Shown here: positions 18,601 through 48,876 of the stretch, piece by piece | Layout of the letters: every line of letters begins with the position of its first letter | How positions within the stretch are numbered: position 1 is the first letter of the stretch | The notes under the pieces: generated by a model | Told to the model about the DNA's origin: nothing | Database searches by the model: none | Seen by the model: only the letters and a program-made list of their open reading frames with translations | Assembly (NCBI RefSeq): GCF_026151205.1 | Contig: NC_087079.1 | Coordinates: 124,001 to 188,000 of the forward strand | Direction of reading: 5' to 3' | DNA: 64,000 nucleotides | DNA from: Bolinopsis microptera | Lineage: Eukaryota > Ctenophora > Tentaculata > Lobata > Bolinopsidae | Program-made: the position numbers and the translations under genes

Positions 18601-21600
18601 AACTCTTCAAATAGTTAGAGCACTATAATACAGTCAATTTCAGGGAGTATAAAAAAATTTCTTCGTCTGTGAGTGGAGATACAAGGTCAAACACAAGAAA
18701 ATATCTTCATTTGGCCAGAATTTTTGCCGGATTCTTGAATAACGGAAAATTGTATTAATAAATGTTCTTTAAACTCTTCAAATAGTTAGAGCACTATAAT
18801 ACGGTCAATTTCAGGGAGTATAAAAAAATTTCTTCGTCTGTGAGTGGAGATACAAGGTCAAACACAAGAAAATATCTTCATTTGGCCAGAATTTTTGCCG
18901 GATTCTTGAATAACGGAAAATTGTATTGATAAATGTTCTTTAAACTCTTCAAATAGTTAGAGCACTATAATACGGTCAATTTCAGGGAGTATAAAAAAAT
19001 TTCTTCGTCTGTGAGTGGAGATACAAGGTCAAACACAAGAAAATATCTTCATTTGGCCAGAATTTTTGCCGGATTCTTGAATAACGGAAAATTTTATTGA
19101 TAAATGTTCTTTAAACTCTTCAAATAGTTAGAGCACTATAATACAGTCAATTTCAGGGAGTATAAAAAAATTTCTTCGTCTGTGAGTGGAGATACAAGGT
19201 CAAACACAAGAAAATATCTTCATTTGGCCAGAATTTTTGCCGGATTCTTGAATAACGGAAAATTGTATTGATAAATGTTCTACGATGGCATCTGATACAA
19301 TACAATACAATAAGTGGAGCACAGAAAGATAAAACCGTATGTGTAACAGATTAATCTTGCCTTGTTTACTCTAAACAATGTGTAATCCTTTGTTGGGTCA
19401 TATTCCACTAAGGACTGAGGTTACCACAAACACGATGGCATCATTGTTTGGAATTGCCCTTGTACAGGCAACAATGTTACCAGATTGATAATTTGTTTAC
19501 CCATGCACAATAGAGGTACTGGAAGCTGTATATCCGGAGTAAACTTTGATGGAGGGAAAATTTTGAAAATGTCCTACCGATAGGACATTTTCAGATTTCA
19601 GCTTTCCGCGGCCCAAATTTCACTGTTTTCACTGAATTTTTCCTGAATGGCCATCTAGTAAAGTCACTGAGGATGGTACAAGACACGATTGAGGTACTGA
19701 AAGTTCTATTTCCAAAGAAAGGCTTCATAAACGGGAATTCATTAGAATAAAAGAAGAGATTTTGAGAGATTTTTTAAGAGAAGCTTTCCTGCTGTCTCCT
19801 TGACCAAAATATCGCGGTTTTGGCTAAAAAAGGACTGGAACCTGTATATATCCGGTAAAAACTTTGATGGAAGGAAAATTTTGAAAATTTCCTACCGGTA
19901 TAGCAGGACATTTTCAGATTTCAGCTTTCCGTGACCCAAATTTCACTGTTTTAACCAGTGGCGTAGTGTAGGGCCCCGCTGACCCCGCTGTGCGGAGGGC
20001 GCCATCTTTAATACTTTCAACACTACTATATAACAAATAATTTGAGGTATGAGATATGATAGACGAGCGTAAGTGTTGACGTGCAAAGGACTGCTGTGAG
20101 TGTACTTGAAGATTACTCATCCTCCTCCTTCTCATCAAAACTATTCTCATCAAAACTACTATCTGGACTGAAGGTTTTGCGTTTACAGTGTTTATTGTGC
20201 TTCTGAACATTGAACTCTTGATAATATAACTATGTCAAATAATCAGAGCTCAGACACTAGTCTCCACTCTTGTGAGCGCCCTTTAGAACATTTGAACTTT
20301 TCATTCCAGTCTGAAAAATCAGAGAACTGTAACAATTGTCTGTCAAAAGACATCAAGATTAACTTTTTAGAAAAAAAGTTGTCTTTATTGAATGAAATTA
20401 TCAGAACTAGTGATCTCATTGCTCAGTACAATGATAGTCTCATATCAGATCAAACTCAAATACAAGAACAGAGTTTTAAGTGTGAAAATTTGCTGCTAAA
20501 CTTATCAGAGGAGATTGAATGTGAGATCATAACCATTACCCCTCAGTCACACGTTGTTATCAATCAAGTAGAAGCGTTTGATGTAGATGACATTGTTGTG
20601 GAAGATGTTGTATCGGACAGTTTGTTTGTTGACAACGATGTCGTGGACAAGGTTGTTCCACAGGAGGTTGTTGGAAACGAGATTGTTATCAGTGAGATTG
20701 TTGTTCACGAGGTTATGGCAGACGAGGATGATGTGTCTGATCTCCCTGTATCTACTGCTACTGGTGAATCACGGATCAACACCCCTAAGCCCAGAGACAA
20801 ATATCCAAACTTGGTCCCTGCCCCTGTCTACGATCCTATAACACCGGGGCCAATGAATATATCTGTAACTTGCTCCCCATCACCAGTGAAACCAGTTACC
20901 CTACTAGATGATGGTCCATTCTCTAAATTTTCACTTGATCTATTAATGGAAGAACTTGAGTTCAGTCACGGTTTTAAAAACAGGAAATCGGTTTATTTTG
21001 GTGACTTTCCCTATGAGTATTCAGGTGCAACACATGACCCAAAAAGTGTACACAATGATTCCTACCTTGCTAAACTCAGCTCCTACATTAATGTGATATT
21101 ACCCAATTTCAGACACAATAGTATTCTCGTCAATCTATATGAAACTGGAGCAGAGTTCATGCCAGCTCATAGCGATTCTGAATCATGTATTGTAGAACAC
21201 TCTGATATTGTAACCATTTCACTTGGTGCGACGAGAATACTGCAAATTAGATCAAACGGCAGCAATGAAGTTGTGGGCTCTGTGCAGCTTCAGCATGGAG
21301 ATGTCTTCATTATGTCCAAATTGTCTCAGGCTGACTTTCAACATGAGATACTGCCAGACGAAATGTGTGATGAACCCCGGATCAGCATCACTCCAAGACT
21401 GATGAAGCCCCCTAGGATCACTCAGTCAACTGAGTTTGGTCTGCGTTCACCGCCCCCACCCATCCCTCATTCAGGACACAAACTGACAGACTCTTCTTCA
21501 CCTGCACTCTCAGTTTGCAAACAGTCAGCTAAAGCTTCACAAAAGTCTGTCCTATTCATAAGCAGCTCTATGTTCAGGTTTCTTGATGCGGACAAGTTAT

Positions 21601-24600
21601 CATCGTCCACTGTTAGTGCTAGTAAACTGTTTTATCCTGGGGCTGATGCCAAAGTAATGTTAAATAAACTAAAAACTGACCTACACTCTGTTCCATCCCC
21701 ATCTATTATTTATATTATGACAGGAACTAATATAATGTGAACACAGTCTATTTTGGCTCAAAGTCACTGAAGGATGCAGCGGGTGACATTAGTAATCTCT
21801 TAAATTATCTCAAGTCAGTGTATCCGAATGCAACAATTAATGTTCTCAATATTCTTCCCAGGAGTACAAAAGGCCGCAATGATGTTGTGGCAGAGCTGAA
21901 TAAGGTTATTCAGGATATGTGTAGCAAAGATTCTTGTTTTAATTACATTAGCACCCATAATTTATTTAACTATAATAGAAGTGGATTCAGGAAAGAATTT
22001 TATTTTGCCAGACCATCTGCAAAAATATCTGATAACTGTCACCTCAATACAAGCGGTGTTATTCGACTCAGTGGCGTAACTTTGCCTGTTGGCGCCCCCC
22101 TGCCGAAAAAAGCGCCCCCCTGTTGGCGCCCCTCTCCCCTTTTGGTGCCCCTCACTAAAATTGAACAAATTAGGTGATTTTAGGGGATACGCCGGTAAAA
22201 TCTCTAAAAAAATGTGTATCTAGAGCAAAACGCGCAGTTTTGCTAGTACTTTAGTTAAGTTTTCGAAATTGTCCCACATTCAAACGACGATTTGGCGCCC
22301 CCCTAAGACGGCGCCCCCCTGCACAGCGGGGTCAGCGGGGCCCTTCGTTACGCCACTGATTCGACTTGCTAAATTTCTGAAGTATTGGGCCCATAAGCAA
22401 GTTTGAATTTTCAGAAAGATTGTTACCATTTATTTCATCTAGATAAGGGATAATTACACATTGTTCCTCATGTTTATTGAAGTTTTAGAAAGTTTTGTTA
22501 TTATCTCATACAAATTTGCCAGTTCTGCAATTTATCTTATTCTGACAAGTTTATAGCAGCATAAATTGGAAAAATTTTCATGCTCTCACAGCAGTTCTTG
22601 CATTAACCCGTGCATTAGTAAAATCACAGTTTCATACCATGCCAAAAAGCTTGCAGTGGGACATTGCAACATGCAGGGAGGACTAACAGGTATGCCAAAA
22701 TGTCTTGAAATCCAAGATCTAATCTGGAAAGAGAAATTAGATGTTTTATGCCTGAATGAAACAAATCTTAAGTCGGATATTGACTCAGCCAGTCTAAACC
22801 TACCCAAGAATTTTACTTTTATCCGCAAAGACCGTTCTAACGACAATGGTCATGGGGGATGTGGCATTCTCATCAGTGAGCACATAAAGTTTAAAATGAT
22901 TCAACTAAACTTAGTTTTGCAATATGACCAAATCGAGGCTATTTGGATCCATCTTACAGATTGCAATATTTTCATCTGCTGTTTCTACAGATCTGAGTTG
23001 TTTAGTCCTCTTGACAAATTTTTAGATTATATGACAGACTGCATGATGAGTATAGGAAGTAAGAATGTTATTTGGCTGGGTGATGTAAATGTAGACCAAA
23101 ACAACATCAGCAGTATGAACTATAAGAAATTAGACATTACAATGAAAATGTTTGGAATGGTACAGGTAGTTCAGGATATTACCCGCATTGCTAAACTAGG
23201 AAACAGAATCACAAAGACCACAATCGATGTTGTCATAACAAACACTTACTCCAAGTTTCTTGACTGCAAAGTCCTTGATGATTGTATAGGAGATCATCAG
23301 GTCGTAAAGTTCATTGTCGATTTCAATGTGCATAAGGCCTCAAAATTCAAGAAGTTACTAATAAGAGATCACAGCAAAATGAATGTTACTGCTCTTAAAG
23401 AATTTTTGGAAACTTGTGATTATAGACCAATAATAGATTCAACTAGTCTGAATGATGCAGTTGATGGTTTAAACGAACATATTGATCACTACTATGATCA
23501 CTTCTGTCCAATTAAACAAATTAAGTGCCATAGTGATTACATCCATAAGCCATCTCCAGAATTTTTAGAAAGTAAGAAATTGAAAGGGAAACTTTACCGT
23601 AAATTTTTAACACACAACAAGAACAGACGTATACATCCAAATGGTCTTATACACTGTAATAAATGTGACTCATTATGGATGGCATATAAACGGCAGAGAA
23701 ACGATTCAACCTATTTGTCTAGAATTATTAGGAAGACTAACTTAGCAACAGAACTGAAAGCCAAGTGTGCCATGAATGATCTAAAGGGTGTATGGAAAAC
23801 GATAAAAACAGCATCAAATCTGCCTGTTAAAGCTAACAATATCAATAACAATCTTGATGCTGAAACCACCAATAAATATTTTGCTGAAATAGGTCCAAAG
23901 ATCCAAGCAGAAGTGCAGCTGGAAAATGAAAATGAATTTCTATCTTATCTACAAAATGAGCAGATTGACAACGAGACCAGCTTGAATAGCTTTACTGAAA
24001 TAACTGAGTCCAATATCTTAGACTATGTGGCAAGTATCCCTTGTAGCAAATCCACTAATGATCATATACCATTGAGAGTGTTTAGACAAATTTTACCTGC
24101 ATTTATTGCTCCATTAACACATCTTGTAAATTTGAGTTTATCCAGTGGCATCATGCCAAACAGCTGCAAGGTTGCAAAAGTCACCCCAATCCATAAGGAT
24201 GGTGATACTGAGAATCCTAGTAATTATCGACCAATCTCAATTTTACCGATTCTTGGAAAGTGCATCGAATTTTGTGTGAACTCCCAACTGACTCAATATC
24301 TTGATGAAAAGGGAATACTTTCAGAGCATCAATATGGTTTCCGTTAAGATCACTCTACAACTTATCTCATGTTAGATCTGTTTGATCGTATATTTACTGC
24401 TAAGAACAGTGCCAAGCATCCTGCAATTATCTTCCTGGACATCAGAAAGGCATTTGATACTGTTAACCATGATATTCTAATTCAAAAGCTGAAGCATTAT
24501 GGAATAAAAGATACTGCATTGAGCTGGTTTAGGAGCTTCCTCACAGATAGATTACAGCAAACTAGAGTTGGGAGTAGGATAAGCAGTGTACATTCATTGA

Positions 24601-27600
24601 ACTCTGGAGTGCCTCAAGGAAGTATATTAGGACCAATTCTATTCAGCATTTTTATCAATGACCTGCCTAATGCATGCCTATATTCTAAACCTTATCTATT
24701 TGCTGATGACGGTGCATTATATTTTGACAATATATCTAGAGGAAACTATGGTAACATCAAACAAGAGTTGAAATTAGTTATCAGATGGCTTCAGGCTAAT
24801 AAACTATCCCTGAATAATGAAAAAACAAAACTAATGATCCTTGACTCTAAGCCTAACCTTGATGCCATCCTTGTTGAATTTGTGATGACCTTACTTTGAT
24901 AATCTGTGAAACTAAATCCCATAAGTACCTTGGACTTATAGTTGACAGCAGATTGACATTTAATGAACATATTGATTACATTAAGAAAAAGATATCCAAA
25001 AGAATTGGTGCTATGTATAGATCAAAAAAACTTCTCCCTCTTAAGTTCAGGAAGATGTTTGCTAATGCACTTATGTTGCCACATTTTGACTACTTAGACA
25101 CCATCTGGTCAAGAACATATAAAAAACGACTAGGAGAGTTAGATATCATGTACAAAAAGGTTGCTAAAATAGCCCTAGATGTAAACATCAGAGAGAGGTC
25201 GGTTAATGTATACAAAAATATGGGATGGCTTCCTCTCCATTTGAGACGACAGGTTCATCTTAGCTCATATATGTACCGTATAATCAATGAAACATGTCCA
25301 AAGCATTTTATCAGGAAATTCTCGTATATTTCTGGTGGATCACGTGAGGCAGAAAACTGCAATCTTTATACTCCTAAATCAAGATCTCACAAGGAGTTTA
25401 ACTATCTAGGAACTAAGGCCTGGAACATATTACCAAAGTCCCTTAGAGAGTGTGACGACGTTAAGAAATTTTCTAAGTTATACAAAGAAACTCTTATGAA
25501 TATGGTGCTAACTGATGAGAATTACCAAGGGGATAACTCTTACGATAAATTCATGATCCCACCCAACACTAGCCAATGTATCTAGGCAGTTATGTTATTT
25601 CAGTTAAGTTATCTCAGTACATAAGTGAATCCAATCCAGCCCCTGCAATCAAAGTATTTCCATGCCTATTAAGCTATTACAGGAAATTAGGAACATCAGT
25701 GGAAAGGTGCACTGTCAATCATTATTGCTCCATACCTCCAGTCCTCCTGTTATGTGCAATTCTCACTGCTATGTATGCTCCTCATTTGTATCAATTATAT
25801 TGATGCTACATTGTTATAGAATATGAAATAATTTTCAACCGGTTTAATTTATTAACTTAGTGTAAATAGCAAGTTTGACAAAGGGATTACGTTTATTTTA
25901 CGCGGAGTTCGTTTAAGTTTAGTATTGTAAATAGTTAATTTGACGAAGGGAATACGTCTATTTTACCCTGAGTTATGTTTTAGTTCAATCTTGACACAAT
26001 TTTGAAATCATAATTTAATTATTTTATATATTATATGTATTGTCCATAACTAGGGTGGCCTGCTAACAGAACCATGATCTGCCTTGATTCATCCTTCAGC
26101 ACAGAGAAAAGCTCCTTTTTTTATACATTATGATTACAGAGGATCTGATATTTAGATATATATTGCTGTGCTGTAAAAATTGACTTTATTTATTTATTTA
26201 TTTATTTAGGGTGGCGCCAAATCGTCGTTTAAATGTGGGACAACTTTGAAAAATTTAACTGCAGTACTAGCAAAACGTTTCGATCTAGAAACACACTTTT
26301 TAAAAGATTTTACCAGTTTATCCTCTAAAATCACCTAATTTGTCCAATTTTACGTTTCTACTCTAAGAGGGGGAGGGGCGTTAACAGGGAGGCGCTTTTT
26401 CAGCGGGGGGCGCCAAAATGCAACGTTACTGCACTGGTTTTGACTGAATTTTTCTTGAATGATCGTCTATAAATATCACTGAGGATGGCACAAGACACGT
26501 TTGAGGTACTGGAAGTCAATACCTCAGTGCAGTGTGCGGTGTGTGTTCGATAAATAAAGTTCAACTTACTTAATCCCCTGAGTGGTCGACGGCAATGCAG
26601 CTTCAGCGACTTGTACAGTATCATGATTTGCATCGTATTTAATGCTCACTCCTTGAGCTGTTGAAGGGTCGAACAGAAATCCCTCAACTTTAGATCCGGA
26701 TCGCATAAATCCCGCAAACTTCATACTGGGCCTAAAAGAGGAAATAGCTGTGATACAGTGCAATTATTATGTTTACTAGTCTATAATCTGTTACATCAAA
26801 AAAAGGGGGGAAAAATCAAATGAATTTAAGACATCAGTTGATAGAACAGAATCTAAATTTGTAATAATTTACTCACGAGATATCGATAGGAGAAGAGCCA
26901 ATGTTATCATTTTTGCCCCAGTAAACATTGTTACGAGTGACCCTTATCATCTTTTCATACGACAGGGAGGCGTAGAAGAGGAGACCATCTTCTTCGTGGT
27001 GTGGTGTATCCAGTGTTAACATTCCTGGAGGAGAATATACATGATTTAAATTTAATTTGTTTTCAACAAAATGAACTACAGTGTTTTTAGAATCTTGATA
27101 TTATCCTTTTAAAAGTAATGTCAACTCACTGTCATAATACAAAGTAACACTTGTGCCACGTCGACAGTAGTCACATCTATGCAGTAAACGCTTGACTATT
27201 GTTGCAGGCAGGCTCATCAAATAGAATAGATGAGTTTTTACTGCCACATTCGAAACAAATCTATTTCATTTATGTCTGTACCCGAATGCCTACCTGTTAA
27301 GATATCCCAATGTCTGTACCGGTTGGTACTGTGGTATGTTACCACCTCCTCTCCGCATATCACAGGATCCACCGTCACTGTGTCCTCCTCATTGAACTTG
27401 CGTCTCCACATGATGGCACCAGTTTTTGGGTGCAGTGCTGCAAGGATGTTCTTCTTGGTAATCACTACAATAGCACGGGAGTCTGCAATGCGGTGCTCCA
27501 CTGCTCCCACATATCGCTGGTGCCTGAATAGAGTTGAATTTTAGATATGTACTATACAATCTAGATCCAGATACTTTCAGTGACTTAAATTATTTCTCGA

Positions 27601-27732: not shown

Positions 27733-28369
27733 CCTAAGAAAAGCTCGAGATAAATAATAAATCTGAGTGAGAGGTTAAATCCTATATTTTCTGTTTAAAT
27801 GATTTAAAGCAAAAGACTGACATTAAAAAACTCTGGCTAAAATTATTAACTAATGCTAAAAATATGTTTCATCAATGTGTTGTCTAAAAAAAATCAGAGA
27901 AGGATTGTGACTATTTGTTCTAGCAACACTTTTTTAAATATACATTAGCTTTTATGAAAAACATCTTGAAAAATCTACAGGATGAAGAAAGGTGACCAGT
28001 AACTCTGTTCATGTTGGTCTTGTAAAATTACTCATGTAATAAATATTGCCTTGACATGATTAATTTGAGTAGGCCAGGACTTCAATCTTACTATATTATT
28101 TTTGGATTCGCCCTGCAAAAAATGTAACTGAGAGCCACTCTCCCGGCCCTGGCAAGCCATAGATCTTTCTGGTTAATGATTTTGTTGTACAATCAACATC
28201 TAAAGGGACTGGTCAAAAACCCCAATTAAAGGGAAGCTCAAAAAGGTCTACTTAAAAGTCAGTGACATGGAACAAATTATAACGTTCAAGAATATAAATC
28301 TACTAATTGTGGGTATATTAAAGTATATTAAAATGTAGGTTTTTTTTCCGATTTTGACCCGGGGATATA
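27733..28369. other. Upstream region of EMC1
   Basis: AT-rich, no ORF of note. It should contain the EMC1 promoter on the minus strand; no TATA box or other motif stands out clearly. Confidence 0.4.
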
Positions 28370-30190: not shown

Positions 30191-30288
30191 CAATTTTTTT
30201 CATTCAAGGCTATAAAATGCAACTTGGAGGTGAAGGGCTGGTGGAATATTACATACATGTTACATGGCGAGATCTCCATCCAAAAGGA

Positions 30289-33200
30289 TTAGTCTGCGTC
30301 GACTGCGTCATTACTTTGTATTATACAACTTCGGCGGGTAACATTTCTCCATCCCTTTCGGTCTGCAGCTAATCTTCTCATACAATCAATCGTGAGTCCA
30401 TTACGATCCAATCTCTGCTCAGCATCCTCAATGAATACATCATTTAAGCTCTTCCTAGGCCTGCCTCTTGATCTCTTCCCATGCTTGGGTTTCCATTCAA
30501 GTAAATAGTTGGGCAACCGATCTTCAGGCATTCTACTGACATGTCCAAACCAACGCAGCCGTTTTGTTGTTATTATGTCAGCAAGGGCAGTTATTGATGC
30601 CCTTCTTAAAACATCCTCATTACTTACTCGATGGAACCACCTCACTCTCAGGATTCTTCTTAAGCAGTACTGATGAAAAGACTCCAATCTTCTTGTCTGC
30701 ACTTGAGTCGTGTTCCATATCTCACATCCATAGGTCAGAATGGTAAGAACAGCTGCGATGTAGATTCGCATTTTGTTGTTAATGCTTATGTTCTTATTCT
30801 TCCAAATGTTGTTGAGTTGGTTAAAAGCTCCGGTTGCTTTTCCAATCCTGACACTTATTTCTTTATCAATCTTGCCATCTGATGTAATTTTGGCACCCAA
30901 ATAAGTGAATTGAGTGACCTGCTTTGCAGAGTTTCCATCGACAGTTATATCTATGGTCCTATTCTCTGGGAGTGGGTGCTGCGATGTATCTTTCCCAATG
31001 ACCATGATCTCTGTTTTCTTTGCGTTCATCTTTAAACCCCCAAGTCCACAGTATTTCGCAATATTGTCCGTAGTTTCTTGCAGTCCTTCAACAGTGTCAT
31101 CCATTCCTGCGATGTCATCAGCATAGTCAAGATCAATGACACATTTTTCCGGTTGTCTGGAACTTTGTCTGTACTGAAGTGTAAAACCACGGGATATATT
31201 CTTAAACTTCTCTGCAAGTTCTAATCCCCAGTTAAGTACAAGATTAAAAATAGGGGGCCCTTGCACATCACCTTGTCCAGTCCCCGAATCGACATCAAAC
31301 CATCTTGTCAATTCTCCATTGACACGAACTGCACTTTCAGTTGCTCTAAAGAACGCTTTGAAAACATTGATATATTTTGTCGGAAGACCATAATGTTCAA
31401 AAGCTTTCCAAATAAAGTCACGATTGATTGAATCAAAAGCAGCTTTAAAATCAATAAAGTTTATGTACAAAGGGACGTTGAATTCTATACAATTGTGTAT
31501 TATACAATGAAGTGAGTACAGCTGATCTATACAAGAACGGTTTCTCCTGAAACCACACTGATTCTCTCTGAGTAATTTTTCAAGCCCATTACTCAGTCTT
31601 TTTAACAACACAATTTGGAATAACTTTGATATAGTTGAGCGTAAAGTTATACCTCTGTTATTGTTGCAATATGTGAGGTCCCCTTTCTTTGGGATGATGG
31701 TGATTATTCCTTTTCTCCAATCATTAGGAATATCCTCACTTTTCCACACAGTTTCAAAAAGATCCTTTAACCAAGGCAGAAGTCCAGGAGAACCGTACTT
31801 TAACTGCTCATTTGAAATTTCATCAATTCCAGCACTCTTGTAGTTCTTCAACTTCTTGATAGCTTCCTCAATTTCAAACAAGGACGGTGGTTCATCATCA
31901 TTACTAAGGTATTCAAAAGAAAGTAACTTTTCATCCTGATCCAATATAGAGAAATCCACCGCATTTGCTGCTGGCGTCAAGAGTTCTTCAAAATATTCGG
32001 CCCAGCGATGTGATTGAGCTTCGGGATCTGATATAAGCGTCCCATTCTTATCCCGCACTGCCGCAGATCTGTTTACCCTCTTGTTTGTTAGGGATTTTAT
32101 TTTCTGCCAAACATCTCTTTGTTGACCCTGCTTGGCAGCATCTTCTAATTCCTCAGCTATTCTAACAGCCCAAGCATTATCATCTCTTTTACAGTTCTGC
32201 CTAACAAGACCGTTAATCCGTGAGTACTTAGCACGGTTCTCAGCAGTACTGGGTTTCTTTTTAATCTCCCCTCGTTCTTTTAGGAGATTCTTAGTATCCC
32301 TTGAGAGATGTTCTGTTCTCTTTTTCCGGCCCCTTTCACCCAGAACTTCAAATGAAACATCAGTTATTATATCTCTTAAATTTTGCCACTGTTCTTCTAA
32401 AGGAGAGTTTTCATGCTCCTGATCGTTGTTATAGTACTCTTCAGCTATTCTGTTACTATATTCCTGGCTCTTAGATCTATCACGCAGGTGCTCTAAAGCA
32501 GGCTGTCTTACACGCTTCTTTCTTTTCTGAGGACACTTAAGTTTAATAGATACATATCCTCTAACCAGATAGTGAGTAGTATTTATATCTGCTCCTCTCA
32601 TGCTCCTGACATCAAGCAAAGAATGGCTCCATCTCGTCGAAATACACATATGGTCAATTTGAGTGACGGTGTTACCATTTGGGGATCTCCATGTTGTCTT
32701 GTGGATATCCTTGTGTTCAAAGAGTGTGCCTCCAATCGTCAGCTGGTGCATAGTACAGAAATCTAGCATCCGTTTTCCGTTATCATTTGATTCTGTGTGA
32801 TATGAGTGTTTTCCTATAACACCAGGGTGAGCATCAGTATCCCTTCTAACACAAGCATTAAAATCTCCTAAAACTATTTTTATATCATGAGCAGGTAGTC
32901 CCGATTGAACATCATTCAATTCCTTGTAGAAAGAGTCTTTTAAACTGATTTCTGCATCCTCAGTTGGAGCATACACAACTGTAACACTAATGTTGATGTG
33001 TTTGCTATGTAAACGGGCAGTCATAACCCGTCCTGATACAGGGGTGTATGATATGAGAGTATTCTTCATCTTTTTGGAAAGAACAACACCAACTCCTTCT
33101 CTCCGTACTCCATCGCTCCTGCCAGAATAAACCAAAACAGCACCATTGCTCAAAGTCTGAGTTCCTGATCCAGCCATATGTGTTTCAGTTACCCCAAGGA

Positions 33201-37905: not shown

Positions 37906-38095
37906 TTAATTATAGGCACATGTCATTTCCATCAAAGTTGAGTTCTGACCATTCATCAGTGTTTCCAGCTTTTTGAGCATTGAGTAGCATAGATTTAATG
38001 CGACCTTTAACAAGTGCAATTGGGGACGAGAAGTCAATCTTACTAGAAGGTTTAAGGAATTTATTCCACATATTCGAGGTTTTATATACAAACAA
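37906..38095 (-). pseudogene. C-terminal end of LINE C ORF2, cut off by LINE B
   Basis: It reads NLFVYKTSNMWNKFLKPSSK and ends in TAA. This is the usual C-terminal tail after the RRDNYFINP block, which is where LINE C's ORF2 breaks off at about 43500. A run of As (LINE B's tail in minus orientation, 38100-38110) abuts it. Confidence 0.8.
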
Positions 38096-38516: not shown

Positions 38517-41500
38517 CTAGGCTGTTGTTTCACTATCCAATAAACATTTCCATAGATGCTTAGTGACCTCAGCTTTGAAAACACTAGTAGACACAATCTG
38601 TCTTACCTGTAAAGGGAGTCCATTCCACAGTATATGAGTTCTGTAGAAAAATGATTTTGCCAGTGGGCTATTTGAGGTACATAAGGTGTGTGAATTCTGA
38701 CTTAACTTAGGTAAAATTGATGACACAATAGACAGACTGTCGAGGTGGCAACGTCTTAGTCGAGAAGTGCCCTGATATAAAGTGAGATAGTGAGGCAGCG
38801 ATACAGGAATTAGATTGTTCAGAACTTTGTGGAAAAAAATAAGATCATTCAAGTCAAACTTTTGAGACAAAGGGAGAATGTCGACAAGCTTGCACTTTTT
38901 GACATATTGCTCAGGTGGATAACTGCGGCCCTCTTCAGACAGAATCCATTTAATAGCTCTCTTTTGGAGACTTTCTAATTTATCACTAAGTGATTTATTA
39001 CAAGGGCGCCAGATTATGGAACAATTTTCGAATTGGCTACGAACTAGGGAGAGGTAAAGCGCCCGGCGACGTTTCAGATCAATGACAATATGGCCATCTC
39101 TTCTGACCATACCAAGTTGTTGGCAGGCCTTAGTATAAATTCTGTCGCACTGACTATTCCAACTTAGCTTAGGAGTAACATCGACTCCAAGATCTTTTTC
39201 TAACTCTACATACACAAGAGGAGAGCCATCAAGATTATATGCGAATGGAGGAGATAAAGATGGTTTTCCTGAAACAATAAGCACTTTACATTTTGCTGGA
39301 TGGAATCGCATTTTGTTTCTAAGTGCCCAGTCAGAGAGATAGTCTATATCCATTTGTAAATTGGTATTATCAGAAGATGAATGTATTTTACGCCAGATTT
39401 TTGTATCATCGGCATACAAAACAATATCAGTATTATCTGAAAGGCCAAGAGGAATATCATTGATAAACAATACAAAAAGTAAGGGACCAAGGATAGAGCC
39501 CTGGGGGACACCAGAATTAACTGAGAGGGTAGATGACATCTCATTACCAATAACCACTCTTTGGTAACGGCCTTGAAGGTAATTGGTAAGAAATTTGAGA
39601 AGTGTACCATCAATGTTATATAAGGTCTTTAGCTTATGAAGAAGGATATCATGATTTACAGAATCAAATGCCTTAGCAAAATCAAAATACACAACATGAT
39701 TGATAATGTTTTCGTTAAGAGACAATGCCAGGCTATCACAAAAATCAACCATATTGGTTGTGCATGACTTGTGCTCTAGAAAACCATGCTGCCTGGGATC
39801 AAGAAGGGTACTTGTCAAAGAAAGCAGTTTACGTTTAACAATGCGCTCAAAAACTTTCATGACTAAACAAGTAAGGGATATTGGTCTATAGTTTTCAACC
39901 TCACTTTTCTTACCTTTCTTAAATATTGGGACAACATTTGCAAGTTTCCATTCTTGTGGAATGTAGCCGCTGTTGTAGGATCCACGAAAAATGCATGTTA
40001 GAGGGTAAGCTAAACCTACGGAACAATTTTTTAGAATTTTACCGTGTATGCCATCTGGTCCCTGGGCTTTATTTGAATTAATATTTGAAAGAAGCTTACG
40101 AACATCCCGATGATCGAAGTCAATATCAAAATCAACATCATTGACATAGGAGATGTCAGTGTCATAAAGTGAAGGATCCGAAAACTGGTTATAAAAGAAA
40201 GAATTGAAAAGTTCAGCTTGATCTTTGGGATTGAACCGAAGCTGTCCAGAATAACTAACACAATTAGGAATACGGCAGGAGTTAGATTTATACTTAACAT
40301 GTGACCAAAACTTCTTAGTTATAAGCGCTGGATCATCACTATTAAAAAGATTATCTCTTATTTTGGCTGATGAGAGCCTCTTAAAATCTTTACGGCTAGT
40401 AACAAACTTTAACTCATCAGAAATAGAACCAGAAATTTTAAATTTAGCTCTGAGTCTATCTTTTTTACGGCATGAAGAAAAAAGTTCACTATCGAACCAC
40501 GGGGGTTGGAACTCTGATTTAATAATTACTTTAGGAATATGTATATCAACTAAATTCATAATGCAGTCTTTAACTAACTTCCAAGACGAATCAGGATCTA
40601 GGCATTCTAGGACTTGCCAATTAATCGAGCATAATTCACGATTAATCATGTCCCAGTTTGCTTTCTTAAAATTATAGATTTTACGTTTAGGAGTTTTCTT
40701 ACGGGAAAAGGAGCTTTTAATTGAAAAAGTGACAGGAAAATGATCAGATTTGCACACGGAATGAGGATCACAGACATTCAAGTTATCGATTGTGTTATCA
40801 TAATTACTGAGAAGAATGTCTAATGTATTACCACTTTTATGGGTGGGTGATGTGATCAACTGGGAGAGAGAAAGATCACTGAAAGAGTCTATGAAGGATT
40901 GCTCAATAGGTACGGTACTGGATGAAGATAGCCAGTCTGTATGGGGGAGATTAAAATCACCAATAACATAGATTTTAGGGGGATTCTTTTTGGAAACTAG
41001 CTTGCGAATATAACTAACTATGACATCATGATTAGGTAACCCAAGAGTTCCTACTCTATAACAAGTACAGATTACAATACTCTCTTTGTTAGGAAAAGAA
41101 ATTTTAACGGCAAGCATTTCTGCACCTAGGCTAACTGGTAGTCGGGTTGTAGTGGCGTCGAGATCAGACCGAACAGCCAAAAGAACACCACCTCCATTTT
41201 CCCTAAACTTTTTAGGGTTATTAGGATCTTGAGGATGAGTCTTTCTCGTGCGGTCATTGCGGAAGATTTCATATTGAGAAGAAGGAAAGATTTCGTTGCT
41301 AGAAATAGATTTTTTGAGCCAAGTCTCATTTAGGGCAATTATGTCAGGCTGCTCTATGTTAGCAAAGGATTGAAGTTCGGAAATCTTATTACCATCAAGA
41401 AGGGGATGGGAGGAGCTTAGGTTACTGAAAGGAATGAGACCTTGGACATTTTGGTAGAGTACAGATAGGGAGTTGGGACCTGGATTAAGCATAGAAGGAT

Positions 41501-42032
41501 TAACAAGAGTTATCAAAAGAAAGTTAAGAGAGAAAACCCAAAGAATGAATAAAGAGACTAGACGCCTGAGGCGGCTGGAATACTTGACTCTATTCATCTT
41601 ACCAGGGAGAAGAACATTTCTTATAAACCATGAGGAGATAATTACAAAGAAAAGTTTGATGTGGGAGCAAGCAAGAGATGGTATAAGATAACGTGGGCTG
41701 TCAAGGAGTAGAGAGGAATGATTATTAGAATCTAGGGGGAATACGGTGTTCATGGACCTAACCGTGGAGAGAAGAATTGGGAGAAAGTAAGTCATGATGA
41801 GAGAATAGAAGAGAAACATATGATTATGATAATTGTAGTTGATGTGTGGGGTGTATGGAGACTTAAATGTGTAAATTTTGTTAGGTATAAACGTGTTGAT
41901 ATGTATAAGTGCATTTCTTGACTGTGTACGAGGCCTTTTGCATGCAAAAAGACCTATTCTAAGTCTAAACGATTCATTGTCTAACATATTGGAAAATGGA
42001 CAGTGACCGAATGTACCTGAAATGGGAGGCAT
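38517..42032 (-). CDS. LINE B ORF2: hydrophobic leader, NPGP motif, APE endonuclease, reverse transcriptase
   Basis: 1171 codons, no lesion. Residues 1-180 are unusual for a LINE: three strongly hydrophobic stretches (about 72-90, 124-142, 157-177). They are followed by LNPGP (NPGP at 183-186), the core of a 2A-type ribosome-skipping site, directly before the endonuclease (SVLYQNVQGL, ALNETWL, VIGDFNLPHTDW, SDHFPVTF). The reverse transcriptase has [46 protein letters not shown] and YADD (873-876), then a normal thumb and WNGLPLQVR end. The upstream 2A residues (D-V/I-E) are not conserved here, so skipping is only possible, not shown. Its start is about 98 bp after the ORF1 stop. Confidence 0.95.
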   Translation of the reverse strand: MPPISGTFGHCPFSNMLDNESFRLRIGLFACKRPRTQSRNALIHINTFIPNKIYTFKSPYTPHINYNYHNHMFLFYSLIMTYFLPILLSTVRSMNTVFPLDSNNHSSLLLDSPRYLIPSLACSHIKLFFVIISSWFIRNVLLPGKMNRVKYSSRLRRLVSLFILWVFSLNFLLITLVNPSMLNPGPNSLSVLYQNVQGLIPFSNLSSSHPLLDGNKISELQSFANIEQPDIIALNETWLKKSISSNEIFPSSQYEIFRNDRTRKTHPQDPNNPKKFRENGGGVLLAVRSDLDATTTRLPVSLGAEMLAVKISFPNKESIVICTCYRVGTLGLPNHDVIVSYIRKLVSKKNPPKIYVIGDFNLPHTDWLSSSSTVPIEQSFIDSFSDLSLSQLITSPTHKSGNTLDILLSNYDNTIDNLNVCDPHSVCKSDHFPVTFSIKSSFSRKKTPKRKIYNFKKANWDMINRELCSINWQVLECLDPDSSWKLVKDCIMNLVDIHIPKVIIKSEFQPPWFDSELFSSCRKKDRLRAKFKISGSISDELKFVTSRKDFKRLSSAKIRDNLFNSDDPALITKKFWSHVKYKSNSCRIPNCVSYSGQLRFNPKDQAELFNSFFYNQFSDPSLYDTDISYVNDVDFDIDFDHRDVRKLLSNINSNKAQGPDGIHGKILKNCSVGLAYPLTCIFRGSYNSGYIPQEWKLANVVPIFKKGKKSEVENYRPISLTCLVMKVFERIVKRKLLSLTSTLLDPRQHGFLEHKSCTTNMVDFCDSLALSLNENIINHVVYFDFAKAFDSVNHDILLHKLKTLYNIDGTLLKFLTNYLQGRYQRVVIGNEMSSTLSVNSGVPQGSILGPLLFVLFINDIPLGLSDNTDIVLYADDTKIWRKIHSSSDNTNLQMDIDYLSDWALRNKMRFHPAKCKVLIVSGKPSLSPPFAYNLDGSPLVYVELEKDLGVDVTPKLSWNSQCDRIYTKACQQLGMVRRDGHIVIDLKRRRALYLSLVRSQFENCSIIWRPCNKSLSDKLESLQKRAIKWILSEEGRSYPPEQYVKKCKLVDILPLSQKFDLNDLIFFHKVLNNLIPVSLPHYLTLYQGTSRLRRCHLDSLSIVSSILPKLSQNSHTLCTSNSPLAKSFFYRTHILWNGLPLQVRQIVSTSVFKAEVTKHLWKCLLDSETTA

Positions 42033-42129
42033 AAAATTGAGAAAAAGATTAAATCAGAGATTTGTTTGAGTTTTAATTTTAGGCGCAACGTCTTAATCAA
42101 AATATTAAATGGAAGAAAAGATCAAAGAT

Positions 42130-43428
42130 TTAAATTCCCAGAAGATTATTTACAACCCTGTCAAAACTGTGTTCGTTTACAACAAACTTAAGCCAAGTGG
42201 ACAGTAAACCTACTCCTCTCATGTTGAGATGAAGCCAATCATGGTATAGAAGTTCATTACATGATCTAAAGTCTCGAGTTAAAAAGACTGAGAAACAGTC
42301 TAAGAACACGCAATTATTATTTAGGCATAAGTCTTTAAGTAGATTATTAAAATCTAGAACATTCTTTGCTATGTAGGAATATAAACATTTAATAGGAAGA
42401 CAACATTGGATAATTATAATTGCAGCGGGAAATAACTGCTTAGTGGTGTCAATTAATTCAGTAAGATACTTCCTAAGGAACTGAACCCCATACTTAGAAT
42501 GTTTAATGTCATTTGTACCAACACTCAATATAATTTTTTCAATATCGTCAGCTTCTGCAGCTGCATGAGTTTTATGAAAATTATGAATGTTTTCAGTGAT
42601 GTCTCTAATTTTTGCACCACTTTGAGACACATTGATTACTTTCCTTCCCCGGAATCCCAACTTATTTGTCCGTACGAATTTTGTCATTGACGTACCAAAC
42701 AGGACAGTGGTTTTCCTGCTCTTCGGTTTTCTTGGAGTATTTCGGTAGTAAAGGGTTGGTGTTGAGGTGGTGGTGGGCGGCATAGGAATTGTAGTGCGGG
42801 CAATCTGCTCCTTGACTACATTTGTATCTGTCTTCGGTATCTGGCAGCGAAAAGATAAGCTATACCGAGTCCCCTTAACTGAGCTCTCTGCACGAACCTT
42901 GTGAAGACAATATTCCTGACACCCCGGTTTCATAATATACAAACTACAGTCCTTTGGGGTGATATAGCATTTACTGTTACATCGCTTATCCCCATTTTCT
43001 GGAATTATGTCGATGGTCCTCTCAGCTCCAAATGAAACTACATAAATACCTTGCGACTGGTCAAGAGACACCTCGTCGTCGTTGTGGTACCTAGTTGCAC
43101 AAGAACCAGACTTGTACATGCTTGCTAGGCATGAGTTTAGCTTGCAGCCAAACTTGGAGTTGATATCATGCATAAGCTCTGATATCCCAGGATAATTTAA
43201 AATATCGATTGGCTCCTTAGTCGTGGTGTGTCCATTTGAGGAAGACCATACATATTCTTCTCCAGTGGAAGTGAGCCACTTTGTGGCAGTTTTCACAGCA
43301 GTTTGCTTGGCCATAAGTGTTTCAAGTTCAGACATCAACGTGCCATGTTGAACACTCTTGTTCTGAACAAAATCTGAATGCAACTCCAAGAAGTCCTCGC
43401 ATTTAACAGAATTTCTCTTAAGTTTCAT
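42130..43428 (-). CDS. LINE B ORF1: AlkB-like dioxygenase + SGNH hydrolase, intact
   Basis: The open frame runs from 43521 but the first ATG is at 43428; the codons before that come in part from LINE C, so I use 43428. Numbering from 43521: a helical N-terminus (about 17-80) precedes an AlkB fold with YHND (His146, Asp148), His207 (CLHKV) and RYSLSFR (Arg219 and Arg225, the R-x-S-x-S-x-R form of the AlkB signature). Then comes an SGNH-hydrolase with all four catalytic blocks: FGTSMT (Ser278), a Gly at 302, GTND (335-338) and HDWLH (Asp428, His431). A Pro/Thr-rich linker (about 245-265) joins the two domains. Such an ORF1 could act on nucleic-acid methyl marks and on an ester or acetyl group, but the substrates are unknown. 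It is possibly 5'-truncated. Confidence 0.92.
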   Translation of the reverse strand: MKLKRNSVKCEDFLELHSDFVQNKSVQHGTLMSELETLMAKQTAVKTATKWLTSTGEEYVWSSSNGHTTTKEPIDILNYPGISELMHDINSKFGCKLNSCLASMYKSGSCATRYHNDDEVSLDQSQGIYVVSFGAERTIDIIPENGDKRCNSKCYITPKDCSLYIMKPGCQEYCLHKVRAESSVKGTRYSLSFRCQIPKTDTNVVKEQIARTTIPMPPTTTSTPTLYYRNTPRKPKSRKTTVLFGTSMTKFVRTNKLGFRGRKVINVSQSGAKIRDITENIHNFHKTHAAAEADDIEKIILSVGTNDIKHSKYGVQFLRKYLTELIDTTKQLFPAAIIIIQCCLPIKCLYSYIAKNVLDFNNLLKDLCLNNNCVFLDCFSVFLTRDFRSCNELLYHDWLHLNMRGVGLLSTWLKFVVNEHSFDRVVNNLLGI

Positions 43429-43462
43429 GACATTCTCAACACTGGCCTTGAGAGCTTTCAGC

Positions 43463-46400
43463 TCATTTAATGAAAACGAGTTTAAACCCCGTTGCAGCGG
43501 GGTTAATAAAGTAGTTATCACGTCGGGGTGACTTTTGAAATAAATTGTACATCGGTATTGGAGTGTGAAGTTTGATTATTTTAAACATTTCAAGTAGACA
43601 GTGGTACTTATACAAATTATGCACGCAGAGTATTTTGTTTCTGCTGAGAAGGGGTTTACTTGATTCTCGTTTATAGAAGTCGGCTCCAAGTTTTTGGGAT
43701 CCAATTGGGCGGGTTCTAGCACATGTTTTGAACTTATTACTGTATGCCTCTTGATCACCAAATAGAATACGAGTGCACTTTTTTTGAATTTTAAATATTG
43801 GTTCAAGCCTATTGTTCGATATGCCTCCCCACACTGAGATCCCATATCCTAGATGAGATTCGAAGAGGGTGTGGTAGAGGTCATTATACAGCTCTTTAGG
43901 TATAAATCTTCTCATACGGCAGAGTTTACCGACTTCACACTTTAATTTAGAACTAAGATATGCAGTATGAGGTTTCCAGTTAAGGTTTTTATCTATAATA
44001 ACGCCGAGGAATTTAGTTTCATCAACACGTTTAATGACTGTGTTATTCAACGTTAAAATAAGATCATTACTATTACTACTACTACTAGTTACATCCTTCT
44101 TTCCTGGTGTAAAGTGAATGTAACAGCATTTCTTGATGTTAATGTGGAGAAGATTGCATTCCATATAATTGTAAACAGAATTCATTATAGTATTAGCTTT
44201 TTGGTAGAGATTCTGGACAGATTTGTCGACTACAAATATATTGGTGTCATCAGCGAAAAGTATAAATTTTCCTAGGTCTGATGAGTTATAGATATCGTTT
44301 ATGTAAATTATAAACAGTAGCGGTCCTAAAACACTACCTTGTGGTACTCCACAAATAACAGGGAGTTTATCAGATTCCTCACCTAAAACTGAAACGTACT
44401 GCTGTCTGTTAGATAGGTAACTTCCAATAAGCTCGTTTGCGTTACCTCTTATACCATATTTGTCAAGTTTTATGAGAAGTTTATCGTGACTGATAGTGTC
44501 AAATGCCTTTGATAAGTCGATAAAGATACCTAATACATGTTGCTTTTCCTTTATATGGGAGTTTACATAGTCAACTGAGTAATTAAGGGCGTGGTTAGTT
44601 GAGTGACTCTTCCTAAAACCAAACTGGTTCTCAAACAAAACGTTCTGCGACACAAGAAAACTGTACAAACGGGAGTAGATTACTTTCTCAAATAACTTTC
44701 CGAACACAGCTAGGGTAGATACTGGCCTATAGTTTTCGAGATATTCTGTACCGTCTTTTTTGTATATAGGGCTAATTTTACCAATTTTCAGTCGGTCTGG
44801 AAAAGTTCCATTTCTCATGTGTTCATTAAATAATACTGACAGGAGTGGGCTTATAATCTTAGACGTTCGTTTGATGACGTGAATAGGGATGTCACTAGCT
44901 TTTCCATTCTTGAGTTCGCTAATGATTTTCTCTATTTCTTCTGGTGTACAATCGCTGAGAAATATACTTGAGGTATTTGGCCTTGGTAAGTAGTCCGTAA
45001 AGCATTGAATTGGACTTAGTCTAATTTGACCGGTTGTACTGTATGATTCATTCAACTTAGGGGCAAGAGATACAAAGTAATTGTTAAATTCGTTAGCTAT
45101 AATTCTACGGTTCATTATTTTCTCATTATTAATAACAAACGGGGGTTTAATTTCTCGTTTCCCTTTGCCGCGTATCTTATTGATTAGTTGCCATGTTTTC
45201 TTACTGTCACCTTGAACTTCATTAAATTTACCCATATTGTACGAAGTTTGAGCCTTTTCACGTATAACTTTGAGTTCTTTTCTATAATATTTATAAGTTA
45301 AGTACTCACTGCGCTTTTTGTTACATACTGCGCAGTGACAGAAGCCACCTTTTGTGTCAGTATCTCCTAGATTACACTTGACTTTGCGAGCTTTGACCCA
45401 GTTTTCGTATAGTTCGTGACAGTGATTTATTGATGTTATAATTGCTGGTGTAATCCATGGATTGTTTTGCATAGTGCGTTTTGTACATTTCGGGGTTTCT
45501 AACTTGAAACATTCGTCAAAAGCAACGTTAAATGTGTCAGCAAAGGTATCAAAACAATTTATTACAGTGTTATCAAGACTATTTGATAGTTTGTCGGTGA
45601 ACTTATCTACGTTAGAGTTACAGTAGTCATAGAACTGTTCATACTTAATCTTGCAATCGTTCTGGTCAAGGTGTGTGTTGAGTGCTAAGAATATGGGGTG
45701 ATGATGTGTGATTTTGTCTTTGAATGTGCCAGATGTTATAATGTTGTCTAAATCATTGGTAATGATGTTATCGATGCATGAAGGAATACAGCCGGGTTTT
45801 TCATGGGTCATTACAGATATGAGAGGATAGAAGCCTCGACTGTAAAGAACGTGTTCATATTTAGCAACCTTGTTGCTGTCGCCGTGAAGATTGATGTTAA
45901 AGTCACCAGCTATATACGAGTGTCTGGGGACTTTGTCCAGAGTGTCGGCTAGTTCACTTAGCGCTAAGTCAAAATTGCCACTCGGAGGGCGGTATAAAAC
46001 TCCAACAAAGGTGCTTGAGTTACCATTGTTGAATCTTAAAAATAGGATTTCTAGGTTTTCACTTACATAGGAGAGGGTATTATCGATTGTTGCATTTAGT
46101 GACTGGTGGATATAAATTGCAACTCCGGTGCCCTTCTTTTTCTCTCGAAAGGTTGCTTGGTAAAAACTATTGTATTCGGTTAATTGATACAAGCTACTTA
46201 ATTCAGGTCCTACATTTGTTTCAGCAAGTGCAATTATGGAAAACTTTTTGTTATATCGGCGAAGATCTATACACATAGTATCAAAGTTACTTTTGTTACC
46301 GTCTATGTTTTGAAACATCATTGACATTTGACCTTCGGTTAAAGTTTCTAGAGTTTGATTAATTTGACTTCTGTTAAGCTGAGAACAGCAGTTTAAAATT

Positions 46401-46651
46401 TGCGAGAGCTTAGTTATCGTATCGTCTAGATCGATTTCTTCGTCGGAGATATCATATTTGAACGGGTTGTATCGTTTAACAGCAAGATTTACACATGTAT
46501 TGCAGAGAAAGTTACCGCATAAATCGGTATTGACAATATTGTAGCATTTATGATGAGTTGCATGGTTACATTCGGAACACTCGACTATGGCTTGGCCCAC
46601 ATAGATACCCTTGCAGCAGTGTTTACATACCTCTTTAGTTAGAGTAGTCAT
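43463..46651 (-). pseudogene. LINE C ORF2: PHD finger, APE endonuclease, reverse transcriptase (3' end displaced)
   Basis: 1062 codons. The N-terminus has a PHD-like zinc finger (CKHCCKG..CSECNHATHHKC..CNTC), then endonuclease blocks (MMFQNIDGNKSN, LAETNVG, AGDFNINL, THHHPIF). The reverse transcriptase has YRPVSTLAVFGKLFE, FIDLSKAFDTISHDKL, CGVPQGSVLGPLLF and FADD (799-802). The start overlaps the ORF1 stop as ATGA (46648-46651), so ORF2 is probably made by stop-and-restart on the same RNA. The frame's last eleven codons belong to the junction with LINE B; the true end of the protein is at 37906-38095. Confidence 0.92.
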
Positions 46652-48876
46652 GACGGTTGGTAGCCGTCAGGATCACCAGATACTCGTTTATCAGCAGGAA
46701 GAGAGCGTGCAGTTATGTCACGAAATGATGTGGAGTCCACCTGATTCCCCCCTCGTCCAGCTCTGCGTCTGTCTCGACCACCATTAACTCTAAGAAGAAT
46801 AGTATTTTTAATGATTGCTGCTAACTTTGCAACCCCCCTCCAATTGAGGTGTAAGTAATCAGGTTTCTGGAACTTCGTCAACCTTTTTGACAAGTGTTGG
46901 CTTAATAGCCCGTTCTCATCAGCAAAGCTTGGAAACCCTTCTACCAGTCTCACACCAAAGTTGAAAGGGAGAAGCTGGGTTTGAATCAGATAGTTAAAGA
47001 AATTGACTCTTCTATTTAAATCAATACATTTAGTTGGCAGCAGCGGACATATATAAACATTAGTTTTTTTATTGACAGCTTGAATTTCAGCAATTTTACT
47101 AGTAAATTTATTGAACACTTGTTTGATGTCAGATGGAGTTTTGACATTATCCTGCCTAATATCATTGAGTCCGCAGAGAATGACAGTGTTTTTGTAGCCG
47201 CAGGATTCGTATGGGTCAATGTGGTCTACAGTAGGTGCGAAGACTTGTTTTCCAGGAAGGAACTTTCCAAAGGATCACTTAGGATCAAGTCCAAATTTAA
47301 GTCCACCAGTGTTCGAATCTCCCATGATGCATGTAGAAGCACGGTTTAGAGCACTAACAGATCTGAGGGTCACAGAGTATCGGACACCGGAGTCGACAGA
47401 TCCTGGTTCAATTCTGTGTTCGTACAAATCCTGACTTGCCCTGGTCATAGTGTATAGTGATCGTGGTGGACAAGACTGGTTGTGATAGGGTTCTGTGGTG
47501 CCAGTCTTGCTGAAAGTGACTGTGCAATGGTGACCTAGTGAAAGTGTATGTACTGATGAGTCAGGGTGAATGAGGGGTTCGTTGTCTGAGTGTTGTGGAA
47601 GGAAGCTTAAGTGACCATCATACCGATTGATGAGAATGCTGTTGACAGGTGGAGAGTTTGGATGATCATTGTTCAGTTGTGTTATGAGTGATTGGAGTTG
47701 GTCTGGCAGTTGGTCGGATGAGGGTAATGATTTTGTGCCAGTGTAGTGATATCTTTCTCCAAAAGCCAGAACAGATCGTCCATTCTCATTCTTGAACTCA
47801 GATGTGCGAGAATCAAGCAGTTCTATGAGATCCTTCTCTGTCTCCTCATCAATAAAATCGAGAGTGTGTTTAGAGACAGGCGGGCGACTGTGTGGGGGCA
47901 GCTGGGTTACAACCTGGGTGTTGAGCTCTTGTAATCCAGGGATGGTCAGTGGATGCTCTGAGGAATGCTGCAGATTTGCTGTTGATTGCTTCAGCTCCTG
48001 CTTGCATACCTCTCTGAGCTCTTGTGACACCCGTTCAAGGAGCTTGTCAGATTGATCTGATGTTGGTGAGGTGGTCATGTCTGATGATAGGGATGTGACT
48101 TGCTGTTTGAGTTCATTTAGTTGGTTGGTGAGTGAGTGGAAAGTCTTGTCATGAGTTTGTAAGGCAGTTGTGAGGTTTTCAATTGTGGTGTTGAGTGGTG
48201 GTGTGGGTGATTTATCCAGGGTAGTGGCCAACTGGTCTGAAAGGAGCTTTATATCTGAGTCTAAGGATTTCCAGGGCTGGTCTTTCAGGAGGAGGTGCTT
48301 AAGGCGTTGGTCAAATTGGCCAAGTGTGTCAATTCTGTTACTGAATTGAACAAAGTCAATATCCTTAATGAGCTTGCAACAATTGGCTAAGGGTTCTAGT
48401 TGTGATGAAATGAGTGCTGTTTCTGCTTCCAGGTTTGTCTGCTGTAGTGATAAAGTGTTTCTGCAGACGTGACAGACGTCAACTTGGGTGGATATAGTAG
48501 TAATAGGTGATACAAAACAAAAGGGACAGGGCCATTGTGTGAGATCATTGAGCATCTTACTATTTAGTCCATTAAGGCCTACGCAGTTCGCATGCCAGTA
48601 CTGTCCACACTTGGCACAGTCTAGTTTCCACGACGATTCCAGTGACTGGTCGCAGGGACATTTCCTCTTATCTCTGTGGGAGTGCTGGATGGCTGGCATT
48701 GCAATGTGTGGTGTAAGGTCCAGCTGGGGCGCTATTGAAGAAGCATCTAACTCTGATAGGGATGATGATGTGTGCTTCTTAGCAGTTTTTGTTTTATGTT
48801 GAGCTGGTGTAGAACTGGAACTGGAACTGGCGGAGAGGGCTTTGTTTCTCCCTTGCCTCTTAGCAATACCAGACAT
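46648..48876 (-). pseudogene. LINE C ORF1: PHD + coiled coil + AlkB-like + SGNH, one TGA
   Basis: 743 codons with a single in-frame TGA at 47275-47277 (after FGLDPK); the frame continues SFGKFLPGKQVF without shift. A PHD finger (about 73-123: CPCD..CAKCGQYWHANC..CPFC) is followed by a long coiled-coil region (about 145-300) and an AlkB domain with QHSDN (His429, Asp431), YEHRI (His487) and RYSVTLR (Arg499, Arg505). The SGNH-hydrolase has MGDSNTGG (Ser521), CGLNDI as block III and DYLHLN as the D-x-x-H block. It is the longest and most complete of the three AlkB-SGNH ORF1s here. PHD plus esterase ORF1s are established for CR1-type LINEs; the AlkB domain is the addition. Confidence 0.9.

Follow-up and report, generated by a model that had tools for sequence, protein, structure and literature searches.

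Three long interspersed nuclear elements (LINEs) of the ctenophore Bolinopsis microptera carry in their first open reading frame (ORF1) an AlkB-type dioxygenase domain joined to an SGNH hydrolase domain. They lie in a stretch of 64,000 nucleotides, here called the window (C8:124001-188000), of a 264.65-Mb genome of 232 contigs; genome-wide counts below refer to this same assembly. LINE A is on the plus strand, while LINE B is nested in ORF2 of LINE C on the minus strand. Across the genome, ORF1 of at least four LINE lineages (A-like, B-like, C-like and L025-like, the last named after a genomic locus) encodes, by its sequence, an Fe(II)/2-oxoglutarate dioxygenase of ALKBH2/ALKBH3 type, fused to an SGNH acyl-hydrolase.

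ORF1 of three LINEs joins AlkB to SGNH

The original prediction placed an AlkB domain and an SGNH domain together in ORF1 of each LINE, and matches in Pfam, PDB and PHROG confirmed this. The AlkB domain was recognized by PF13532 in LINE A (amino acids (aa) 261-389, E 3.1e-17; ALKBH3 match 1.3e-13) and LINE C (aa 373-505, E 2.8e-13). LINE B was weak by Pfam alone (PF03171, 0.0045); it matched ALKBH3 in PDB at 6.5e-8 and the PHROG family 'alkylated DNA repair' at 9.2e-18 (aa 18-195). The HxD, distal His and RxSx[TS]xR motifs proposed for the three AlkBs were found by a six-frame pattern scan of the window. The joint HxD..H..RxSx[TS]xR pattern, composed after the three motifs had been seen, occurs at three places only, LINEs A, B and C, and in 0 of 200 mononucleotide shuffles.

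The SGNH blocks, said to be kept in all three, are clear in LINE B (PF13472 2.7e-12, 4.4e-13 for the domain alone; PDB 4c1b 1e-5) and readable in LINEs A and C, where Pfam scores for the pieces are weak (0.042 and 0.022). The entry 4c1b is listed as 'ORF1-encoded protein', which we take to be the ZfL2-1 esterase. Gene boundaries needed revision. LINE A ORF1 (20232-22415) and LINE C ORF1 (46648-48876) keep the proposed domain order, but each is split over two frames, at 21740 in LINE A, which also holds a 290-bp insertion, and as 48876-47275 and 47274-46648 in LINE C. LINE B ORF1 is an open frame with both domains, but its 5' boundary is 43486, not 43428, and its start is lost, cut within the ninth codon when judged against the genomic copy L035. 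The suggested PHD N-terminus is a weak finger in LINE C alone (0.017-0.03) and scores better in its relative L022 (5.4e-4).

The elements comprise, in window coordinates:

20232..21740, plus strand: LINE A ORF1 first frame (AlkB, start of SGNH), premature stop at its end
21012..21398, plus strand: LINE A AlkB domain, aa 261-389; HxD 21168, distal His 21342, RISITPR 21378-21398
21731..22177, plus strand: LINE A ORF1 second frame, remaining SGNH (DNCHLN block; PF13472 E 0.042), running into the inserted element
22069..22358, plus strand: short element within LINE A ORF1, 290 bp, 12-bp inverted ends CAGTGGCGTAAC, 8-bp target duplication ATTCGACT
22557..25585, plus strand: LINE A ORF2 (endonuclease-reverse transcriptase (EN-RT)), split over three frames
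42130..43486, minus strand: LINE B ORF1, 5'-truncated, remaining frame open
42835..43407, minus strand: LINE B AlkB domain, model residues 8-198; HxD 43086, distal His 42903, RYSLSFR from 42867
42169..42720, minus strand: LINE B SGNH domain, model residues 237-420; PF13472 2.7e-12, and predicted fold
38517..42032, minus strand: LINE B ORF2, 1171 aa, endonuclease and RT
47275..48876, minus strand: LINE C ORF1 first frame (PHD, helical linker, AlkB, start of SGNH)
47362..47760, minus strand: LINE C AlkB domain, aa 373-505; HxD 47592, distal His 47418, RYSVTLR from 47382
48514..48663, minus strand: LINE C weak PHD finger, aa 72-121; E 0.017-0.03, PDB PHD chains at best 0.014
46648..47274, minus strand: LINE C ORF1 second frame, remaining SGNH; its TGA overlaps the ORF2 ATG
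43466..46651, minus strand: LINE C ORF2 (PHD/C1-like finger, endonuclease, RT), split by LINE B
37910..38074, minus strand: LINE C ORF2 C-terminus past the LINE B insertion, start approximate

The overlap of LINE C ORF1 stop and ORF2 start reads ATGA (46648-46651, minus strand), a hint that termination is coupled to re-initiation. In the B clade, ORF2 (38517-42032, minus strand, in the window; L046-L050 elsewhere) opens with segments that look membrane-spanning and an NPGP motif that by eye is 2A-like; the endonuclease comes next. A stretch at 26206-26436 is ~80% similar to the short element at 22069-22358.

AlkB-SGNH elements are spread through the genome

An AlkB profile gave at least 151 genome matches at E <= 1e-3 (best 150 of 587 candidates scored, a ranking that favours well-kept copies), concentrated on contigs C1-C13, twelve of them with lengths of 15-26 Mb. 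We examined the surroundings of 30 of these 150, the 20 best (L009-L028) and 10 from other score groups (L036-L045). AlkB is followed by SGNH in 24; three are Helitron-type (L013, L023, L027) and three host-gene-like (L009-L011), with no EN-RT frame seen beside the latter. A single family supplies eleven of the 24 as near-identical copies (L012, L014-L021, L024, L026); its ORF1 is broken in L012 and L018. All 14 AlkB-SGNH loci within L009-L028 have an ORF2, identified by Pfam in L015, L022, L025 and L028 and by DNA identity to L015 in the ten others. Among L036-L045, an ORF2 start could be read from the sequence in seven, L036 and L037 belong to the L025/L028 family, and L043 has no long frame downstream of ORF1 within the stretch examined. 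Pfam matched SGNH in L015 (8e-6), L022 (0.003) and L028 (0.008) and gave no match in L025; in other families the domain was read from its blocks.

Loci were also sampled through SGNH, independently of AlkB. From a GDSL profile search (150 of 424 candidates scored) we took one frame from each of seven frame-length groups (L029-L035), and six have an upstream AlkB with all ligands present: one LINE B copy (L035) and five new families (L029-L033), whose ORF2s are 39-45% identical to that of LINE B over the aligned part of their starts. The seventh, L034, has no AlkB ahead of SGNH, and its adjoining stretch matched none of three ORF2 queries. L034 and L051 (C1:7074000-7077300) represent a LINE-like family with an SGNH ORF1 lacking AlkB and, by eye, a different endonuclease-like frame downstream.

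The AlkB-SGNH elements have been mobile recently, as seen from the near-identical copies of the L015 family (F1; ~97-99% identical to L015 over long stretches) and from LINE B ORF1, of which 27 frames, the window's included, are nearly complete, have no stops and share 95-100% identity (99 matches, with 97 of 908 candidates scored). LINE B and L035 differ at 2 of 1372 bases. With so many young open-frame copies, biochemistry is feasible. Three distinct decayed LINE B-like ORF1s (11-24 stops) have equal scores and the same spacing on three chromosomes (C10:7598938-7649489, C12:1364478-1415029, C13:15319248-15369799), which looks like the recent duplication of a block of 50 kb or more. In viral contigs no relative was confirmed, either for LINE B ORF1 or for the alignment of three AlkB rows.

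Host ALKBH fragments that adjoin LINEs by chance or misassembly could in principle mimic a fusion. We found no support for this and give it a negligible probability: AlkB and SGNH share one open frame in dispersed copies, and the three host-like AlkBs differ, with RxN where each element AlkB has RxS.

The SGNH domain and the LINE class

By their ORF1 SGNH domain and the APE-type endonuclease and RT of their ORF2, the AlkB LINEs appear to be esterase-type members of the CR1/L2 group. The Ser, Asn and His blocks of SGNH are all present in 18 of 19 aligned rows, judged by eye; LINEs A and C (WA and WC in alignments and pairs, where LINE B is WB) lie outside this alignment. The exception is Helitron L027, whose frame ends before block V. 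The catalytic Asp is absent in L030, L031 and L043 and displaced in L029, L032 and L033. At the position of the transposon-specific His191 of ZfL2-1, four before the block III Asn, LINEs A, B and C have, by eye, no His; it is His in L040 (one of 19 aligned rows) and, outside the alignment, in L044.

Helitron-type elements carry the two domains in reverse order

Locus L013 (L013:1023-8399, C12:2467280-2477230) encodes a single 2459-aa frame with SGNH, AlkB, DUF6570, Helitron_like_N and PIF1 in this order, SGNH thus standing first in Helitrons and AlkB first in LINEs. With a frame that holds both Rep (Helitron_like_N) and the PIF1 helicase, the L013 lineage is classed by its domains as a Helitron. 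The same SGNH-AlkB frame occurs in L023, which has PIF1 in another frame, and in L027, which has DUF6570; no Rep was found in the frames scanned of these two. Genome-wide there are 41 Helitron_like_N matches (all 51 candidates scored), and six share strand and frame length (2225, 2459, 3226, 3321, 3366 and 3388 aa) with an AlkB match a few kb upstream.

The AlkB domain is old in the elements and kept by selection

We estimated ratios of nonsynonymous to synonymous substitution (dN/dS) by NG86 in 13 pairs, which are not independent; AlkB was countable in nine. It was saturated in L015/WA, L029/L032 and L029/L033, and WB/L035 was uninformative, with no replacement and hardly any change. AlkB dN/dS was lowest in the L025 family (L025/L028 0.049, L028/L036 0.048, L025/L037 0.046), followed by L015/L041 (0.12, dS 1.8), L041/WA (0.17, dS 2.3), L022/L039 and L030/L031 (both 0.18), L022/L038 (0.20) and the Helitron pair L013/L023 (0.21). 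AlkB is therefore kept by selection in these elements, which suggests that it helps in their copying. In the eight pairs comparable with AlkB, the parts outside AlkB and SGNH gave 0.10-0.66. AlkB was the most constrained part in four of the eight, three of the L025 family and the Helitrons, and we rejected the idea that it is always the tightest. SGNH was equally or more constrained in L022/L038, L022/L039 and L030/L031, and in L015/L041 the part outside both domains (0.098) was as constrained as AlkB. For WB/L035 the corresponding value (0.52) is too high, since it includes unrelated sequence that lies upstream of the truncation.

The RT tree (8 rows) separates L025/L028, LINE B, LINE C with L022, and LINE A with L015, and in the AlkB tree the B-like rows, the L025-like rows and most A-like rows come out as groups. 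The AlkB-SGNH fusion, which had been proposed to be old and selected, is thus old, and for the most part, though perhaps not throughout, it has moved together with the element. The C-like AlkBs are split in the AlkB tree (one change in 0% of bootstrap trees), whereas the C-like endonucleases form one clade (98/99); LINEs may have exchanged some ORF1s, or the tree may be poorly resolved here. The AlkB of L043 falls outside the A-like group. Helitron AlkBs group with A/B/C-like LINEs (98/97), leaving L025/L028 outside; a constraint placing all LINEs together was just rejected (p-AU, approximately unbiased test, 0.040), while one placing A/B/C-like LINEs together without Helitrons was not (p-AU 0.234). 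Support for all element AlkBs against host rows was 87/77 only. Both ORF2 trees carry long-branch warnings, and the SGNH tree is weak at depth.

Other features of the window

LINE D (30289-33177, minus strand) has an open 962-aa endonuclease-RT frame and no adjoining AlkB match. Tandem arrays with periods of ~171-175 and 64 bases occupy 17830-19281 and 13901-14722. An inverted repeat (52861-53853 / 54822-55811) has arms of ~990 bases that are 98.8% identical. Two similar frames (57781-58314 and 63172-63795) resemble an ABC transporter N-terminus by eye, without a Pfam match over the cut-off, and are probably host exons.

An ALKBH3-like enzyme that may keep single-stranded intermediates copyable

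ALKBH2 and ALKBH3 act on 1-methyladenosine (m1A) and 3-methylcytidine (m3C), ALKBH3 preferring single strands; the HxDxE Glu of both enzymes touches the methylated base. A profile of 18 element AlkBs (17 LINE rows, one Helitron, no host rows) scored 121 bits to ALKBH3, 95 to ALKBH2, 48 to E. coli AlkB and 43 to ALKBH8, with lower values for a DNA N6-methyladenine (6mA) demethylase (25), ALKBH6 (24), ALKBH1 (18) and ALKBH5 (16); neither ALKBH5 nor FTO was the closest match in this search. The LINE C AlkB alone preferred ALKBH6 and ALKBH8. A first structure prediction of LINE B, from a 5-row alignment, reached a pLDDT (predicted local distance difference test) of 56, with ABH2 and ALKBH3 at the head of the Foldseek matches. 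The final prediction, from a 17-row alignment, is likewise of AlkB type, with ALKBH2/3 structures holding 1meA or 3mC DNA among the nearest and FTO and ALKBH5 lower.

LINEs, through RNA template and cDNA, and Helitrons, through rolling-circle single-stranded DNA, both pass a single-stranded stage, and an ALKBH3-like domain in both classes suggests that the enzyme may keep that stage copyable. In the mechanism that we propose, AlkB would work in cis inside the particle of ORF1 protein (ORF1p) and RNA, removing oxidatively Watson-Crick-face methyl groups (m1A, m3C), left by damage or by host marking, from the single-stranded element RNA and perhaps also from its cDNA, and RT would thereby not be stopped. 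The Helitron lineage, with the same domains in opposite order, would use the enzyme on its single-stranded DNA intermediate, and SGNH would probably serve particle assembly or membrane localisation, as proposed for fish ZfL2-1 ORF1p. Taken jointly, these steps fall in our estimate a little short of an even chance. m1A leads to truncated or mutated cDNA, and in mRNA it is demethylated by ALKBH3 (PMC9141559). The original prediction of a retroelement-encoded demethylase that repairs or unmarks RNA or cDNA is borne out in part, by AlkB families and predicted fold, ligands, selection and presence in two element classes; activity, substrate and role we infer. The wider proposal, that AlkB-SGNH is an ALKBH3-like mobility module common to LINEs (class I) and Helitrons (class II) of one lineage, keeping their single-stranded intermediates copyable and passed between classes that have only a single-stranded stage in common, is possible but on balance doubtful.

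Instead of removing lesions that block RT, the enzyme might erase regulatory m1A or N6-methyladenosine (m6A) that the host sets on element RNA to have it degraded or badly translated. An ALKBH5-like ORF of an orchid Gypsy element demethylates m6A in single-stranded RNA in vitro (PMC9289625), m6A affects L1 (PMC7873242), and the predicted fold also matches FTO and ALKBH5. The profile, however, gives 121 bits to ALKBH3 against 16 to ALKBH5, and human ALKBH5 suppresses L1 in cells (PMC7873242), so m6A erasure would hurt at least L1; we consider such counter-defence rather unlikely. Demethylation of host or element DNA (6mA, cDNA or target-site lesions), protecting or unsilencing new copies, would fit the DNA repair role of ALKBH2/3, the structures with 1meA or 3mC DNA among the nearest folds, and a Helitron version that cannot depend on an RNA template; the score to the DNA 6mA demethylase is nevertheless weak (25 bits), and we find this quite improbable.

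Ligand conservation bears on whether the domain is an enzyme at all. All 21 of 21 element sequences have the iron and Arg ligands (H, D, H, R, R) as well as the HxDxE Glu. Rows were picked by a motif search requiring ligand residues, which cost no locus: each of the 30 loci from the AlkB profile passed it, as did the B-like families L029-L033 fetched through SGNH alone. The N-x-Y contact to 2-oxoglutarate is more variable, with Tyr in 20 of 21 and Asn in 11 of 21 (otherwise T, S or I). This variation would suit a catalytically idle fold that binds single-stranded nucleic acid in place of the RNA recognition motif missing from esterase-type ORF1p, and esterase-type ORF1ps in RepBase lacked structural RNA-binding domains, leaving their RNA binding unexplained (PMC3905857). 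Yet iron and both Arg ligands in all 21 sequences would be difficult to account for if the domain neither turned over a substrate nor even bound metal and co-substrate, and an idle module seems to us highly improbable. Of these readings we favour demethylation in cis.

Comparison with known systems

Esterase-type (type IV) ORF1s of CR1, L2 and RTEX elements, such as zebrafish ZfL2-1, likewise have SGNH at the C-terminus and an endonuclease-RT ORF2 behind it (PMC3905857, PMC4120745); here AlkB stands ahead of SGNH, and ZfL2-1 His191 is not kept in LINEs A, B and C. SGNH/GDSL ORFs have been captured by unrelated element classes in rotifer LTR (long terminal repeat) and Penelope-like elements (PMC5408684). 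The word AlkB does not occur in the main text of these papers on ZfL2-1 esterase, Jockey superfamily ORF1 types and rotifer elements (PMC3905857, PMC4120745, PMC5408684). In the open-licence literature, Repbase and Dfam lying outside that search, the orchid Gypsy is the only retroelement-encoded AlkB that we met (PMC9289625), and among the titles listed none describes a Helitron with AlkB; an earlier description may exist.

Among RNA-based genetic elements, the LINEs share an AlkB of their own with plant flexiviruses, RNA viruses without RT or SGNH that carry AlkB domains. A platyfish Helitron reportedly has a captured SGNH gene. If the proposed activity is true, these would be the first LINEs (and Helitrons) with their own nucleic-acid demethylase known to us, making it testable whether methylation of element RNA or single-stranded DNA, as damage or defence, limits transposition. 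The closest parallel is the Ty3/Gypsy element of the orchid Phalaenopsis, a retroelement with an AlkB-type dioxygenase whose ligands are intact; the demethylase activity in vitro is the orchid's (PMC9289625). That enzyme is ALKBH5-like (m6A) and lies in a separate ORF2 of an LTR element, a recent acquisition in one plant genus (PMC9289625), whereas the AlkBs described here are nearest ALKBH3/2, are fused to SGNH, are old, and occur in non-LTR and Helitron-type elements of one genome.

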